Assembly (NCBI GenBank): GCA_020722945.1
Contig: DYJV01000052.1
Span: 1-17,169, forward strand
From: Candidatus Methylomirabilis sp.
Lineage (GTDB): Bacteria; DYJV01
Direction: 5' to 3'
DNA: 17,169 nt
Part shown: piece by piece, positions 5,920-16,968 of the stretch
Layout of the letters: each line of letters begins with the position of its first letter
Position numbering within the stretch: the first letter of the stretch is position 1
Program-made: the position numbers and the translations under genes
The notes under the pieces: generated by a model
What the model was told of the DNA's origin: nothing
The model's database searches: none
What the model saw: the letters and a program-made list of their open reading frames with translations, nothing else

Positions 5920-6258
5920 TTGATAAATATAAACCCAGATGGGATATTAAATAAAAGAATGAATTCAAATATAGAAAAACTCGCTTCTGAATCATCAAAT
6001 ATGAAGAAAATGAGCAAGGAGAATGAGCAAGAGCTAAAAAAAGTCTGCAAAGATTTTGAAAGTTTTTTTATTAACTATATGTTTAAAGAGATGCGTAATA
6101 CTGTCCATAAAAGTGAGTTTATTCCTGAAACAAACGCACAGAAAATCATTGACAGCATGTATTATGAGAAGCTTTCCGACTCAATGTCAGATGGCAGTGG
6201 CATAGGAATTGCTGATATGCTTTATAGCAACTTAAAAAGGGAATATTTTTCAAAATGA
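5920..6258 (+). CDS. flgJ: FlgJ-type rod-binding protein, single domain
   Basis: A 112-residue protein matching only the N-terminal rod-binding domain of FlgJ. The conserved stretch spans about residues 40-110: KKVCKDFESFFINYMFKEMR, then AQKIIDSMYYEKLSDSMS and GIGIADMLYSNL. In enteric bacteria FlgJ is about 310 residues, with a C-terminal glucosaminidase domain that opens peptidoglycan for the rod; that domain is missing here and the gene ends normally, so another enzyme must do this job. Single-domain FlgJ is known in several phyla. The start is TTG with a strong ribosome binding site. The gene follows flgI by 30 bp and is the last before the internal sigma-28 promoter. Confidence 0.88.
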   Translation: MININPDGILNKRMNSNIEKLASESSNMKKMSKENEQELKKVCKDFESFFINYMFKEMRNTVHKSEFIPETNAQKIIDSMYYEKLSDSMSDGSGIGIADMLYSNLKREYFSK

Positions 6259-6273
6259 ATTTATTGCAAATTG

Positions 6274-6300
6274 TTAAGTTTTATTATATCCTGCCGATAA
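6274..6300 (+). promoter_or_regulatory. Sigma-28 (FliA) promoter of flgM-flgN-flgK
   Basis: TTAAGTTT (6274-6281), 11 bases, then GCCGATAA (6293-6300). This matches the enteric FliA consensus TAAAGTTT-N11-GCCGATAA at 15 of 16 positions with exact spacing. Transcription should start about 5-8 bases later, inside the A-run at 6303-6310, giving a leader of only about 20 bases before flgM. A FliA promoter in front of its own anti-sigma gene is the classic feedback arrangement. Confidence 0.9.
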
Positions 6301-6316
6301 TTAAAAAAAAGCAGGA
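6289..6316 (+). promoter_or_regulatory. Possible hairpin masking the flgM ribosome binding site
   Basis: TCCTGC (6289-6294) is the exact inverse of GCAGGA (6311-6316), which is part of the flgM ribosome binding site GCAGGAGG. Only RNA reading in from the upstream operon contains both arms; RNA starting at the sigma-28 promoter lacks the left arm. The stem is 6 bp with a 16-base loop, so stability is modest. Function is inferred. Confidence 0.4.
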
Positions 6317-6324
6317 GGTATAAA

Positions 6325-6624
6325 ATGAAAATAGACCCTAATGAACTCATTATCAACAAATCAGTCAAAACAGAAAAAACTGATAAAAAAGAGCTCCACA
6401 ATCAGATACTCAAAGCTAAATCTGATGAAGATTCTGTAAGTTTTTCAGAGAATCTGAAAAAAGCTGAAGAAAAGGTCATTGACATACTCAACTATCCCGA
6501 CAAAAGAGCTGAGAAGATAGAAAACTTAAAAGGGATGATAAAATCTGGCGAGTATAATGTTGATGTTCATAAGCTTACAGACAAAATAATTGAGGATCTT
6601 GTTTATGGAGGGTTTTATCAGTAA
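6325..6624 (+). CDS. flgM: Anti-sigma-28 factor FlgM
   Basis: A 99-residue protein with the typical FlgM layout: a charged, probably unfolded N-terminal half, then a helical sigma-binding half. The signature is at about residues 72-95 (DKRAEKIENLKGMIKSGEYN, VDVHKLTDKIIEDLVYGGF), which closely follows the family pattern of RAEKV, GxYxVD and DKIxxDL. FlgM holds FliA (sigma-28) inactive until the hook is complete and FlgM is exported. It has a strong AGGAGG site and lies directly after a near-perfect sigma-28 promoter, forming the expected feedback loop. Length is close to the enteric protein (97 residues). It is followed by flgN after 14 bp. Confidence 0.93.
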   Translation: MKIDPNELIINKSVKTEKTDKKELHNQILKAKSDEDSVSFSENLKKAEEKVIDILNYPDKRAEKIENLKGMIKSGEYNVDVHKLTDKIIEDLVYGGFYQ

Positions 6625-6638
6625 ACAGGAGATTACAA

Positions 6639-7154
6639 ATGAAAAATGTTTCAAAAACAACTATCCAAAAATGTATCGACCTATTAAGCTTGGAGTACAA
6701 TTTCTACAAAGAGCTTCAAGAAGTATTGATTCAGGAGAGGAATGCACTCGTTAAAATTGGGAATGAGGAGCTTTCAAATATCAATTTCAGCAAGGAATCT
6801 ATCCTTATAAACATAATCGAAGTAAAAAATAAACGTAAAGATATCATGCAGAACATAAGTGAATTACTAAATGTCGATGTCAACCAGATAAATTTGACAT
6901 TTCTTGCAAACAATTTCGAAGAATTCTCAAGCACATTCATCAAAATCAGAGATGATTTCAAAAAAATTGGGGTTAAGATAAAATCCCTAAATGAAACCAA
7001 CAAACATATAATCAATTCATCACTCCAATTCATTCAATCTTCACTTAATATAATATTCCAAGGTTCAAATAGGGCAGTTTATACGAATTACGGTAAAGTA
7101 TCTGTCAACAACAATTATATTAAAAACAACCAACTATACAGTAGCAAAATATAA
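6639..7154 (+). CDS. flgN: FlgN-family export chaperone
   Basis: A 171-residue, almost entirely helical protein. The N-terminal half follows the FlgN pattern: a helix with LLSLEYNFYKELQEVLIQER, then a loop and a helix with ESILINIIEVKNKRKDI. The C-terminal part has a long helix (about residues 115-140) and a Tyr-rich tail. FlgN is the cytoplasmic chaperone for the hook-filament junction proteins FlgK and FlgL. Sequence conservation in this family is low, so the call relies heavily on its place between flgM and flgK, the usual partner genes. It has an AGGAG site; flgK follows 40 bp later. Confidence 0.82.
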   Translation: MKNVSKTTIQKCIDLLSLEYNFYKELQEVLIQERNALVKIGNEELSNINFSKESILINIIEVKNKRKDIMQNISELLNVDVNQINLTFLANNFEEFSSTFIKIRDDFKKIGVKIKSLNETNKHIINSSLQFIQSSLNIIFQGSNRAVYTNYGKVSVNNNYIKNNQLYSSKI

Positions 7155-12391: not shown

Positions 12392-12459
12392 TCAAAGCAC
12401 AAGCTGAAGTGCTCCAAGTGTAAGACTGAAAAAATATAACAAAAAAAGAAAAAAGAACA

Positions 12460-12543
12460 ACCACCCCGCCGCTTTGCGGCACCCCTTAAGTAGAGGGGAA
12501 TACCCCTTCAGGCTTTGCCTTCCACCCCTACACAGAGGGGAAT
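12460..12543. repeat. GC-rich hairpin repeat, two 42-bp units
   Basis: Two adjacent 42-bp units, 12460-12501 and 12502-12543. Each starts with an ACC(AC)CCC block, has a small central hairpin (GCCGC-TTT-GCGGC in the first, AGGC-TTT-GCCT in the second), and ends with ACCCCT, a 5-7 base variable part, then AGAGGGGAAT. CCCCT and AGGGG also pair, giving a two-hairpin element. It stands out from the AT-rich surroundings and is preceded by an A-rich tract (12430-12459). It resembles small non-coding REP/MITE-like repeats found in many copies in bacterial genomes; no transposase is nearby. Confidence 0.8.
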
Positions 12544-12550
12544 AAAAAGA

Positions 12551-12637
12551 ACCACCCCGTCTGGTCTGTGTTTATTAGCACTCAAGACAAGTCAGGATAC
12601 ACCTGCCATCCCCCGGAAGAACAGGCTGAAGGCTGAA
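12551..12637. repeat. Degenerate or interrupted copy of the GC-rich repeat
   Basis: ACCACCCCGTC at 12551 restarts the unit, but the central part is replaced by about 45 unrelated bases before CCTGCCATCCCC (12602-12613), which recalls the second half. AGGCTGA is repeated in tandem at 12623-12636. It could be a decayed copy or one with a small insertion. Confidence 0.45.
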
Positions 12638-12675
12638 GAAAAAAACAAGAGCAAAAAAATAAAAATAAAAAAAAG

Positions 12676-12740
12676 ACCACCCCGCCGCTTTGCGGCACCC
12701 CTTAAGTAGAGGGGAATACCCCTTCAGGCTTTGCCTTCCA
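12676..12740. repeat. GC-rich hairpin repeat, perfect 65-bp duplicate
   Basis: These 65 bases are identical to 12460-12524, displaced by 216 bp, so they contain one full 42-bp unit and half of the next. The second unit then diverges into TCTCTCACAAAAAGTGAAAT, a relic of its end. The perfect identity against otherwise unlike flanks suggests recent duplication or gene conversion. It is preceded by an A-rich tract (12636-12675), as the first copy is. Confidence 0.85.
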
Positions 12741-13083
12741 TCTCTCACAAAAAGTGAAATTTACATTGGTTAGGAATATTCTCAATTTAAAATTCAACAT
12801 TCATCATTCTCTATTCTCAATTCTCAATTCAAACACAATTTTGAAGATTGAAATCTTATAAGTAGTAATCAAAATATAAAGATACAACTGAAATAAAAGT
12901 GTCAAAACATTTTAATAATAAATAAATTCAAAAATTTATGCAACCAATTTTATAACATAATAAAATTTTTATAGATTGGAAAGATAGAAATTATTAAAGT
13001 ATTAACTCAATAGAAATTTATCTAAAAAATATTAGTAATGATTTTTGTTATCTTGTTTTAAGATTATTCGTATCTTATTAAAA
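12741..13083. other. AT-rich intergenic DNA without a gene
   Basis: No convincing open frame or RNA gene. 12770-12840 is a low-complexity run of TTCTCAA/TTCAACA-like short repeats. ATAAATT-CAAA-AATTTAT (12922-12939) is a perfect palindrome with 7-bp arms. The rest is AT-rich spacer leading to the glgA control region. Confidence 0.6.
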
Positions 13084-13336: not shown

Positions 13337-14740
13337 ATGAAAATAGCCCATATAGCAAGTGAAGTTTACCCTTTCTCTAAAACTGGCGGATTAGCTGATG
13401 TAGTATCTGCGCTACCACTTAGCCTCAAAGCAAATGGTCTTGAATGCTTTGTTATATCTCCACTTTACAAAAATATTATAAATAATTTTCCTCTCAAAAA
13501 AAGTAAAGAGAGCATTGACATTCAAGTAGGCACAGATATTTACAATATACAGATATTCCAATACAAAAAATCTGGGGTGCACTATATCTTCCTGTCCAAC
13601 CCTTACCTTTTTGAAAGAGACGGGTTATATACCTCCAATGGGAAAGATTACAGTGACAACTGTTTGAGATTTGGTATCTTTACAAAAGCAGCACTACATT
13701 TTATTACTAATAGTATCGGCACTCTTGACATTATACACTGCCACGATTGGCAGACAGCCCTTACAGCTCCACTTTTAAAAACAGAATTCCAAGATATAAA
13801 AGCTAAAGTTGTTTTTACTATACACAATATTGCATTTCAGGGGATTTTTGATTTTTCTGAGTTATCGAAGTTAAATCTCGATACTTGGCTTTTCGGTTTT
13901 GGTGGTTTCGAATATTATGGTAAAGCCAACCTTATGAAATGTGCCATCATAAAATCTGACGCTGTTACAACCGTAAGCCCTACTTATGCAAATGAGATAC
14001 AGACTCCAGAGTTAGGCTACGGTTTAGAGGGTGTTCTCTCAGAGCATAGCTACAAGCTTCAAGGGATACTCAATGGTATTGATTACAATGTATGGTCACC
14101 ACAAAAAGATAAACATATTATCCAAAAATATTCTCAAAAATCTACAAAAAGGGGTAAAACTATAAATAAAGATTATCTACTTAATAGATTCAACCTCCCA
14201 AAAGATAAACCACTTTTTGGATTTGTTTCCCGTTTTACAAAGCAGAAAGGGATAGACATTACTATTGACATCATCAAGAAATTTCACAAAGATATAAATT
14301 TTATACTTTTAGGTGATGGTGATTCCTCTGTAAAGCAAGAGTTGGAGACTTTAAACTCTCTTAAAGAAGCAGCCATCCAATTTGGCTACAATGAGCCTCT
14401 CAGCAGACAAATTTATGCAGGCTCTGATTTCTATCTTATGCCTTCACTATTTGAACCTTGTGGGCTCTCACAGCTTATAGCAATGAAATATGGTGCTATC
14501 CCTATTGTCAGGAAAACAGGTGGGCTCTCAGACACCATAGTAGATATATCTTCTAATGGATATGGGATAATCTTTGAAGATTACACTACTGACAGTTTTG
14601 CAAATGCCATCGATAGAGCATTATCAGTTTATCATAAAGGGGAGAGTGACCAATTTTACAGACTTGCAATGGAGAAAGATTTTTCTTGGAATGAATCCTC
14701 AAAACAATACATTACGCTCTACAAAAAATTAAGGGGGTAA
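13337..14740 (+). CDS. glgA: Glycogen synthase (GT5)
   Basis: A 467-residue cytoplasmic glucosyltransferase that extends alpha-1,4-glucan chains from a nucleotide sugar, in bacteria usually ADP-glucose. GT5 features run in order: MKIAHIASEVYPFSKTGGLADV with the substrate-binding Lys15 and Gly-Gly; IHCHDWQTAL; FTIHNIAFQG; AVTTVSPTYANEI; GILNGIDYNVW; the C-terminal domain SRFTKQKGIDI; and EPCGLSQLIAMKYGAIPIVR with conserved Glu373 and KTGGLSDTI. Length is typical (E. coli 477). No clear ribosome binding site precedes the ATG at 13337, unlike nearly every other gene here, so expression may depend on the leader. It is first of a three-gene cluster with 3- and 2-bp gaps. No glgC or phosphorylase gene is in the window. 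Confidence 0.96.
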   Translation: MKIAHIASEVYPFSKTGGLADVVSALPLSLKANGLECFVISPLYKNIINNFPLKKSKESIDIQVGTDIYNIQIFQYKKSGVHYIFLSNPYLFERDGLYTSNGKDYSDNCLRFGIFTKAALHFITNSIGTLDIIHCHDWQTALTAPLLKTEFQDIKAKVVFTIHNIAFQGIFDFSELSKLNLDTWLFGFGGFEYYGKANLMKCAIIKSDAVTTVSPTYANEIQTPELGYGLEGVLSEHSYKLQGILNGIDYNVWSPQKDKHIIQKYSQKSTKRGKTINKDYLLNRFNLPKDKPLFGFVSRFTKQKGIDITIDIIKKFHKDINFILLGDGDSSVKQELETLNSLKEAAIQFGYNEPLSRQIYAGSDFYLMPSLFEPCGLSQLIAMKYGAIPIVRKTGGLSDTIVDISSNGYGIIFEDYTTDSFANAIDRALSVYHKGESDQFYRLAMEKDFSWNESSKQYITLYKKLRG

Positions 14741-14743
14741 AAT

Positions 14744-15385
14744 ATGGGCTTTCAGGCATTTATGGAGCAATCAAATCGTAACAATAGTGGGAATGAGGAG
14801 AATATAGTAGAGTTGTTAAAAGATATGATTTTCGAGGGGAACAACTACACCAACAACCTTTTCAAAGTAGAAACATACACTACCCCAAAATATGAGGAGG
14901 ATATATCTATTCCAGATAGATACGGGATAGATTATATTTATCTCCTTCCTATAAATCCTCAAAATATCTATATAATATGGGAGATTACTTTGGCAACCTT
15001 AAAAAATACCATAGCAGATATTAACAATATCAGTGACATCCAATTACTGCTGCGTGTATTTTACGACAAAAATAACTTTGAGGAGATAGCAATTAAAGAT
15101 ATTGGAAACTACTACTATTCAAATAATCAGATAAACGGCAGGTATGTCTGGGCAGAGTTGGGAGGGATATTCAATGGCTCTTTTATCAAAATATTGGCTA
15201 CAAATAAAGTTTTAATGCCAAGAGATTATTTATCTGATAAGTTCTCTACATACTGGATTAATAAAGAATCTTCAGACAAGATTATCTACCTTTCAATATT
15301 TAATCTTTCAGAACAGCATAGTAGTATTGAGCTGCAAAGAAAAATTTTTCAAACATTAAGTTCTGATCTTACAAATAGGGGATAA
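14744..15385 (+). CDS. DUF4912 domain protein in glycogen cluster
   Basis: A 213-residue protein of unknown function. The N-terminal 55 residues are polar and probably flexible. The DUF4912-type core covers about residues 58-162: YGIDYIYLLPINPQNIYIIWEI (the family 'dP..lyvyWEi' strand), LLLRVFYD, then GRYVWAELGGIFNGSFIKIL and ATNKVLMPRD. This family occurs repeatedly next to GH57 glucan-branching enzymes and glycogen synthases, so a role in alpha-glucan metabolism, perhaps glucan binding, is likely but unproven. No signal peptide or catalytic motif is seen. It starts 3 bp after glgA with AAGGGGG overlapping the glgA end, and ends 2 bp before the branching enzyme gene, so the three proteins are translated from one message. 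Confidence 0.8.
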   Translation: MGFQAFMEQSNRNNSGNEENIVELLKDMIFEGNNYTNNLFKVETYTTPKYEEDISIPDRYGIDYIYLLPINPQNIYIIWEITLATLKNTIADINNISDIQLLLRVFYDKNNFEEIAIKDIGNYYYSNNQINGRYVWAELGGIFNGSFIKILATNKVLMPRDYLSDKFSTYWINKESSDKIIYLSIFNLSEQHSSIELQRKIFQTLSSDLTNRG

Positions 15386-15387
15386 TT

Positions 15388-16968
15388 ATGAACGGATATT
15401 GGACACTCGTATTACACTCACATTTACCATTTGTCAAACATCCAGAGTTTGACTACTTTCTTGAAGAGCATTGGTTTTATGAAGCACTCACTGAATCTTA
15501 CATACCACTTCTACTCAATTTTGAAAAGCTACTTGAGGATAAGATAAATTTTAAGATTACTATTTCGCTCACTCCTCCACTCTGTGAAATGTTTACAGAC
15601 AATTTTCTCATGGAAAGATTCTTTAAATATCTTAATCGGAATATAGAATTGTGTCAAAAAGAGATAAAAAGGACCAGTAATCAGCCAGAGTTTAACTCTC
15701 TTGCCCATTTTTATCTTGAAAGATACATAAAAATCAAAAATTATACATTTGATAATTTACAAGGTAATATCATAAACGGTTATAAGAAATTCATACAAAG
15801 TAAAAATATAGAGGTAATAACATGTGCGGCAACACACGGTTTCCTACCATTTTTAGGGGTTAACAGCAAAAATAGCTCTGCACAGATAAAGATAGCTGTA
15901 GATTCATACAAAAAGCATTTCTCAGAGCAGCCAAAAGGTATATGGCTACCTGAATGTGCATACTACAACGGACTCTCAAAAATATTAGCTGACAATGGAA
16001 TAAAATATTTTTTCATTGATACACATGGGATAATTTTTGGTTCACCAAGACCTCAATATGGTATTTATGCACCTATTTACACAGAAGATGGTGTTGCTGC
16101 ATTTGGAAGAGATCACAATTCATCAAAACAGGTATGGAGTTCAAAAGAGGGATACCCGGGTGATTACAATTACAGAGATTTTTATAGAGACATCGGTTAC
16201 GATCTCGATTTTGATTATATACATCCATACATAATCCCTGACGGCACAAGAGTTTTCACAGGAATAAAATATTACAAAATAACAGGTAATACCGATCAAA
16301 AAGAGCCTTACAATCCCAATAATGCTTATTTAAGGACAGAAGACCACGCAAAACATTTCATTTACGAACGTGAAAAGCAATTTGAGACCATCGGAACACT
16401 TATAGATAGACCACCACTAATAGTTTCACCCTACGACGCAGAGCTTTTTGGACATTGGTGGTTTGAAGGACCAGATTTTATATACAACATATTCAAATAT
16501 ATGGATGGCAATCCGCACATAATACCGATTACACCTTCTGAATACTTATCCCAATACAACAGGAATCAAGTAATCTCACTTAATCCATCTTCTTGGGGGG
16601 ACAAAGGATTTTATGAAGTATGGCTCAATGCTTCAAATGATTGGGTATATAGGCATATCTTGGTATGCAGTGACAAAATGATTGAAGTTGCAAAAGATTA
16701 TAAAGATGAGAGTGATAGTATCAAAAATCGATTAATCAACCAGCTTGCAAGGGAGCTTCTGCTTGTTCAATCAAGTGACTGGACATTTCTTATGACCACC
16801 AAAACAGCATTGGAGTATGCTACAAAAAGAGTAAAGGAGCATATCCACAATTTTAATAGATTGCTGAGTATGCTTAATAATGACTCGATTGATACAGATT
16901 ATCTTTCCAAACTTGAATTCAAAAACAGCCTCTTTTCTAATTTTGACCTTAAAAAATATTTTTTGTAA
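15388..16968 (+). CDS. 1,4-alpha-glucan branching enzyme, GH57 family
   Basis: A 526-residue cytoplasmic enzyme that cuts alpha-1,4 chains and rejoins them as alpha-1,6 branches in glycogen. GH57 motifs: LHSHLPFV (9-16); GIWLPECAYYNG (184-195) with the likely nucleophile Glu189; and VSPYDAELFGHWWFEG (346-361) with the likely acid Asp350, equivalent to Glu184 and Asp353 in the Thermus thermophilus enzyme. The C-terminal helical part carries SSWGDKGFYEVWLNASNDWV (401-420), the DUF1957-type region of branching enzymes, which separates it from GH57 amylases. Length matches the family (about 520-560). It replaces the unrelated GH13 GlgB used by many bacteria. Start ATG has a GGGGAT site; it ends the cluster. 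Confidence 0.93.
   Translation: MNGYWTLVLHSHLPFVKHPEFDYFLEEHWFYEALTESYIPLLLNFEKLLEDKINFKITISLTPPLCEMFTDNFLMERFFKYLNRNIELCQKEIKRTSNQPEFNSLAHFYLERYIKIKNYTFDNLQGNIINGYKKFIQSKNIEVITCAATHGFLPFLGVNSKNSSAQIKIAVDSYKKHFSEQPKGIWLPECAYYNGLSKILADNGIKYFFIDTHGIIFGSPRPQYGIYAPIYTEDGVAAFGRDHNSSKQVWSSKEGYPGDYNYRDFYRDIGYDLDFDYIHPYIIPDGTRVFTGIKYYKITGNTDQKEPYNPNNAYLRTEDHAKHFIYEREKQFETIGTLIDRPPLIVSPYDAELFGHWWFEGPDFIYNIFKYMDGNPHIIPITPSEYLSQYNRNQVISLNPSSWGDKGFYEVWLNASNDWVYRHILVCSDKMIEVAKDYKDESDSIKNRLINQLARELLLVQSSDWTFLMTTKTALEYATKRVKEHIHNFNRLLSMLNNDSIDTDYLSKLEFKNSLFSNFDLKKYFL

Follow-up and report, generated by a model that had tools for sequence, protein, structure and literature searches.

A putative transcript-start-dependent mask of the flgM ribosome binding site in a flagellar operon of Candidatus Methylomirabilis

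We analysed a stretch of 17,169 nucleotides (nt) of DNA from Candidatus Methylomirabilis sp. (contig DYJV01000052.1), called here the window, and in it the leader of flgM, the gene of the anti-sigma-28 factor. In the flagellar operon of the window, flgF-flgG-flgA-flgI-flgJ-like genes are followed by a 66-nt gap and then by flgM-flgN-flgK-flgL-csrA-fliW. The last gene before the gap (5920-6258) codes for a rod-binding protein of the flgJ-like type (Pfam PF10135, E 8e-13). The flgM gene starts with the ATG at 6325 and ends at 6624 (PF04316, E 3e-10), and its FlgM domain scores 40.6 bits against the Pfam cut-off of 25. The flgN gene (6639-7154, PF05130) begins 14 nt 3' of flgM and is possibly affected together with it. 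These genes, the promoters and the leader features described below are all on the plus strand.

The gap contains a strong sigma-28 promoter at 6274-6300, which consists of TTAAGTTT (6274-6281), an 11-nt spacer and the -10 box GCCGATAA (6293-6300). The flgM Shine-Dalgarno (SD) sequence AGGAGG lies at 6313-6318, and among the 14 window genes examined flgM alone has a perfect one. An earlier note on this DNA had claimed that TCCTGC (6289-6294, the left arm) and GCAGGA (6311-6316, the right arm, which overlaps the SD) are exact reverse complements, and that the left arm overlaps the -10 region. Both the coordinates and the sequence were confirmed. The left arm runs two bases into the 5' end of the -10 box; thus no RNA from the sigma-28 promoter can contain the left arm, provided that the promoter is what it looks like from its sequence. 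The 16-nt loop between the arms (6295-6310) contains the sigma-28 start expected from the promoter geometry, at about 6305-6308. The predicted fold of the leader has an energy of -12.9 kcal/mol (z -2.5) and includes an outer A/U-rich helix of 7 base pairs (bp), in which 6278-6284 pairs with 6320-6326 and which reaches the start codon. A search of Rfam 15 gave no match above the gathering score in the window.

We looked for the same arrangement in relatives. A search of the phylum returned two genomes, the window's own and a relative, G001, both draft assemblies of many contigs. G001 belongs to the same order and a different family; its FlgM is 52% identical, and its gene order is the same. Its flgJ-flgM gap reads TAAAGTTTTAAAAAATCCTGCCGATAA-CAAGATTGAAGGATTATAAAAAGGCAGGAGGTTTGGT-ATG. 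Its alignment with the window shows conserved blocks at the -35 box, ATCCTGCCGATA and GCAGGAGGT; both promoter boxes and both arms are kept, and the left arm again overlaps the -10 box. The pairing is not only kept in G001 but lengthened to 7 bp (TCCTGCC/GGCAGGA). A 13-nt insertion between the arms makes the loop 29 nt long, compared to 16 nt in the window. Such a change in spacing is tolerated by an RNA loop. In the G001 leader (L004/L048, minus strand), AAGGATT offers AATCCT of the left arm a possible partner other than the SD; in the predicted fold, pairing with the SD is favoured.

To assess masking, we used the predicted cost of opening the SD, calculated for a single RNA strand with no ribosomes. 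In the window, opening costs 9-10 kcal/mol in read-through RNA arriving from the upstream genes versus 1.4 kcal/mol in the sigma-28 RNA. The corresponding values in the relative are 6-7 and 1.8 kcal/mol. In the read-through RNA the cost remains at least 5 kcal/mol in predictions from 15 to 60 °C. In predictions for both genomes, the SD is paired with an upstream arm in a stable helix, which has 6 bp in the window and 7 bp in the relative. When the 14 ribosome binding sites of the window were compared, the flgM SD was both the best and the costliest to open (9.7 kcal/mol); the next one required 6.4 kcal/mol, and most about 3 kcal/mol or below.

The source of the read-through RNA is suggested by a candidate sigma-54 -24/-12 promoter, TGGCATTCTATTTGCT (2105-2120, GG-N10-GC), located ahead of flgF-flgG-flgA-flgI-flgJ. 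A scan of the plus strand from 2371 to flgM found no terminator-like sites. One RpoN and one FliA score above curated cut-offs in the window's genome, and the same holds for the relative. Because a sigma-54 site precedes flgF, no terminator-like site was found, and fliA and rpoN are both present, read-through into the flgM leader, which the earlier note had assumed, is plausible. Translation of flgJ ends at 6258, about 30 nt 5' of the left arm, and at this distance ribosomes that terminate there are not expected to open the hairpin.

Taken together with these predictions, the layout suggests the following scheme. Read-through RNA from the sigma-54 rod and ring operon would contain TCCTGC, which would pair with GCAGGA in the flgM SD and close it. 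The sigma-28 RNA would start 3' of the left arm; the hairpin could not form in it, and the SD would stay open. Most translation of FlgM, and perhaps of FlgN, would then take place on sigma-28 messages, and the anti-sigma factor would be made in step with the activity of its target sigma factor. The earlier note had also proposed that FlgM is kept low during rod and ring assembly; this goes beyond our evidence.

Coincidence had to be considered, as the earlier note itself demanded. We simulated leaders in which the promoter boxes and the SD were fixed and the remaining bases were random at AT-rich composition, and we counted perfect helices between the promoter and the SD region. A helix of at least 6 bp, as in the window, arose with P = 0.0055, and one of at least 7 bp, as in the relative, with P = 0.00095. 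The earlier reader chose the site from a whole window of about 14 genes, and by our arithmetic multiple testing over them raises the chance for the window to about 8%. For this reason the window taken alone is only suggestive. Conservation of the pairing in G001 makes chance unlikely.

We also compared flgM leaders from control FlgM loci of a wide range of bacterial lineages, of the phylum of G018 and of E. coli K-12. In all, 38 leaders carried a sigma-28-like promoter with 12/16 matches or more. When ranked by start-site-dependent masking, the window genome and G001 came first and second (8.5 and 4.2 kcal/mol), and they alone had a helix of at least 6 bp. By our arithmetic, two given leaders would by chance rank first and second of 38 once in 703 cases, a figure that is no proper P value given the common ancestry of the two genomes. 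The other 36 leaders showed a mean of 0.6 kcal/mol versus 0.5 kcal/mol in their spacer-shuffled versions (Wilcoxon p 0.91). On this basis we rejected a general flgM phenomenon. Since these leaders behave like the shuffled controls, the arrangement looks specific to this lineage, where, as far as the two leaders indicate, it is kept. The earlier note had named relatives that keep the promoter and lose the pairing as one result that would refute its proposal. Inside the phylum the pairing was kept in G001; outside the phylum we found promoters with no such pairing. 

The same leaders show whether TCCT belongs to the promoter. It was found before the -10 box in 0 of the other 36, and directly before the -10 box it was not seen in other promoter-plus-SD matches or in the fliC-type promoters of both genomes. 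We therefore rejected TCCT as a general sigma-28 promoter preference. One flgM leader under the score cut (L117, 11/16) carries TCCT before its -10 box. In a leader of another lineage (L064, genome G011), TCCTCGGAGGA stands right at the flgM-like start and forms a local self-complementary SD. Further comparison leaders were sought with other queries. A FlgM query against genome contigs gave no match, and an FlgI query gave six Desulfobacterota-like loci. The reading frames in the translated flgJ-flgK gaps of these loci looked FlgN-like, so they offered no flgM leader and were set aside. The window's own assembly encodes a weak second FlgM-like protein (L094, contig C87, 43920-44108); it was rejected as a further example, as no obvious sigma-28 promoter lies directly before the gene.

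Several observations weigh against a mask, and some of them favour the explanation that the complementarity is idle, the left arm being a -10 box with a chance TCCT and the right arm an ordinary strong SD. Both the GC of the left arm and the AGGA of the right arm are under constraint in any case. The pairing is missing in the other 36 sigma-28 flgM leaders, and G001 has a second sigma-28-like promoter, before a peptidase-like gene, with TCCT 5' of its -10 box and no partner SD. The P value of the window by itself is weakened by multiple testing. In the spacer-shuffled control, 2.5% and 7.5% of the shuffles performed at least as well in opening energy as the two leaders, so this measure alone is modest. 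The compensatory double changes in the arms that the earlier note had asked for are absent from the window-G001 alignment, since the -10 box constrains part of the left arm; conservation and one added pair were found instead. The two genomes share ancestry and are not independent. The outer helix to the AUG belongs only to the predicted fold of the window; it is not shared by the relative, and we rejected it as part of the conserved element. Finally, the read-through and the start sites are themselves deduced from the DNA. On the other side, TCCT is outside the promoter consensus and the GC before AGGAGG is outside the SD, yet both are conserved, which neither function alone explains. The chance probabilities of about 0.005 and 0.001, and ranks 1 and 2 among the 38 leaders, also argue against coincidence. 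We consider it unlikely, although of the other explanations it survives best.

It is also conceivable that the conserved GCAGGAGG is a site bound by the CsrA that is encoded, together with FliW, in the same cluster, and that the hairpin shapes this site and is not a start-dependent mask. The csrA and fliW genes are located 4-5 kilobases downstream of the flgM leader, and the longer leader of the relative contains a second GGA. In other bacteria, CsrA is reported to bind flagellar mRNAs at GGA motifs (PMC4894983). GGA, however, is present in every good SD, and here it lies in the stem and not in the loop. A CsrA site also leaves the conservation of TCCT inside the promoter unexplained, and we find this explanation very improbable. 

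The hairpin could instead serve RNA processing or stability between the rod/ring and the flgMN messages: hairpins that separate two gene groups, here within a gap of 66 nt, can in general be sites of cleavage or protection. There is no feature suggestive of a nuclease, and the coincidence of an arm with the SD is not explained, which makes such an element highly improbable. There is no T run after the stem, and the hairpin was rejected as a terminator. An inverted repeat over a promoter has the usual look of an operator for a dimeric regulator, here at the sigma-28 promoter and start region, but this is the least probable explanation of all: the arm spacings of 16 and 29 nt differ by 13 nt, which is not a whole number of helical turns and normally would not be tolerated by a dimer operator, and an operator would not need arms that coincide exactly with the SD.

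With moderate confidence, we therefore favour a ribosome binding site mask that depends on the transcript start as the reading of the flgM leader. As the arrangement is kept in a distant relative, it is probably a real switch. The proposal of the earlier note that the SD is masked only in read-through RNA stands in part. The structure is not a random one and persists in G001, and the SD is predicted to be closed in read-through RNA only; compensatory changes are absent, and so is the pairing outside the phylum.

Other features were observed near the locus and in the same assembly. After the flagellar cluster, the window contains three open reading frames (13337-16968) that we take to be glgA-like, DUF4912-like and GH57-like. 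The AT-rich non-coding DNA at 12438-12745 contains two copies, 216 nt apart, of a G+C-rich repeat about 60 nt long (ACCACCCCGCCGCTTTGCGGCACCCCTTAAGTAGAGGGGAATACCCCTTCAGGCTTTGCC). The start of this repeat is present in a third, partial copy at 12530-12559, and it resembles a dispersed repeat element. In the window's assembly (G000), contig C133 carries a second flgL-like gene of the flagellin family (L072). The DNA around it appears to contain the end of another flgK and a further csrA-like reading frame. This region is either a second flagellar gene set or contamination of the bin, which is reported at 5.8%.

The closest known parallel is the leader of the phage T4 lysozyme gene e, and likewise those of soc, 49 and I-TevI, as described in PMC3014915, where the primary work of McPheeters et al. 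1986 is cited. In gene e, translation differs about 100-fold between transcripts (PMC3014915). The anatomy and logic of gene e and I-TevI, a ribosome binding site masked depending on the transcript start, are the same as those proposed for the window. The T4 case is a proven one in a phage, whereas that of flgM lies in a chromosomal flagellar operon and is predicted only. Unlike in gene e, the protein encoded by flgM is an inhibitor of the same sigma factor that gives rise to the open transcript.

As in Salmonella and E. coli, two kinds of transcript would reach flgM, the second from a sigma-28 promoter just upstream. The E. coli flgM leader (L098) differs in that it has no comparable arm, and its SD costs the same to open in both RNAs. 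In Salmonella, the checkpoint includes class 2 production of FlgM; were FlgM kept low during rod and ring assembly, this lineage would depart from that. Effects of Flk and FlgN on the translation of flgM are also reported (PMC8036289). The translation of flgM is controlled by the small RNAs OmrA/B in E. coli (PMC7549644) and CJnc230 in C. jejuni (PMC11187230). In these cases, too, base pairing at translation initiation determines how much FlgM is made, but the small RNAs act in trans, whereas the mask in the window would act in cis and need no extra factor. Our searches of the open-access literature did not find a cis mask of this kind for flgM. 

It is a long-standing question in flagellar biology why early and late promoters both transcribe flgM and what each message contributes. 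The wider idea is a protein-free translational feedback, conserved in a single little-known lineage, in which the -10 region doubles as an anti-SD arm and FlgM translation is licensed only on messages made by the sigma factor that FlgM targets; we hold it to be about evenly balanced between true and false. If it is true, a short cis element gives the two flgM messages different translational value without an extra factor, and the trick of phage T4 extends to a bacterial sigma/anti-sigma loop.
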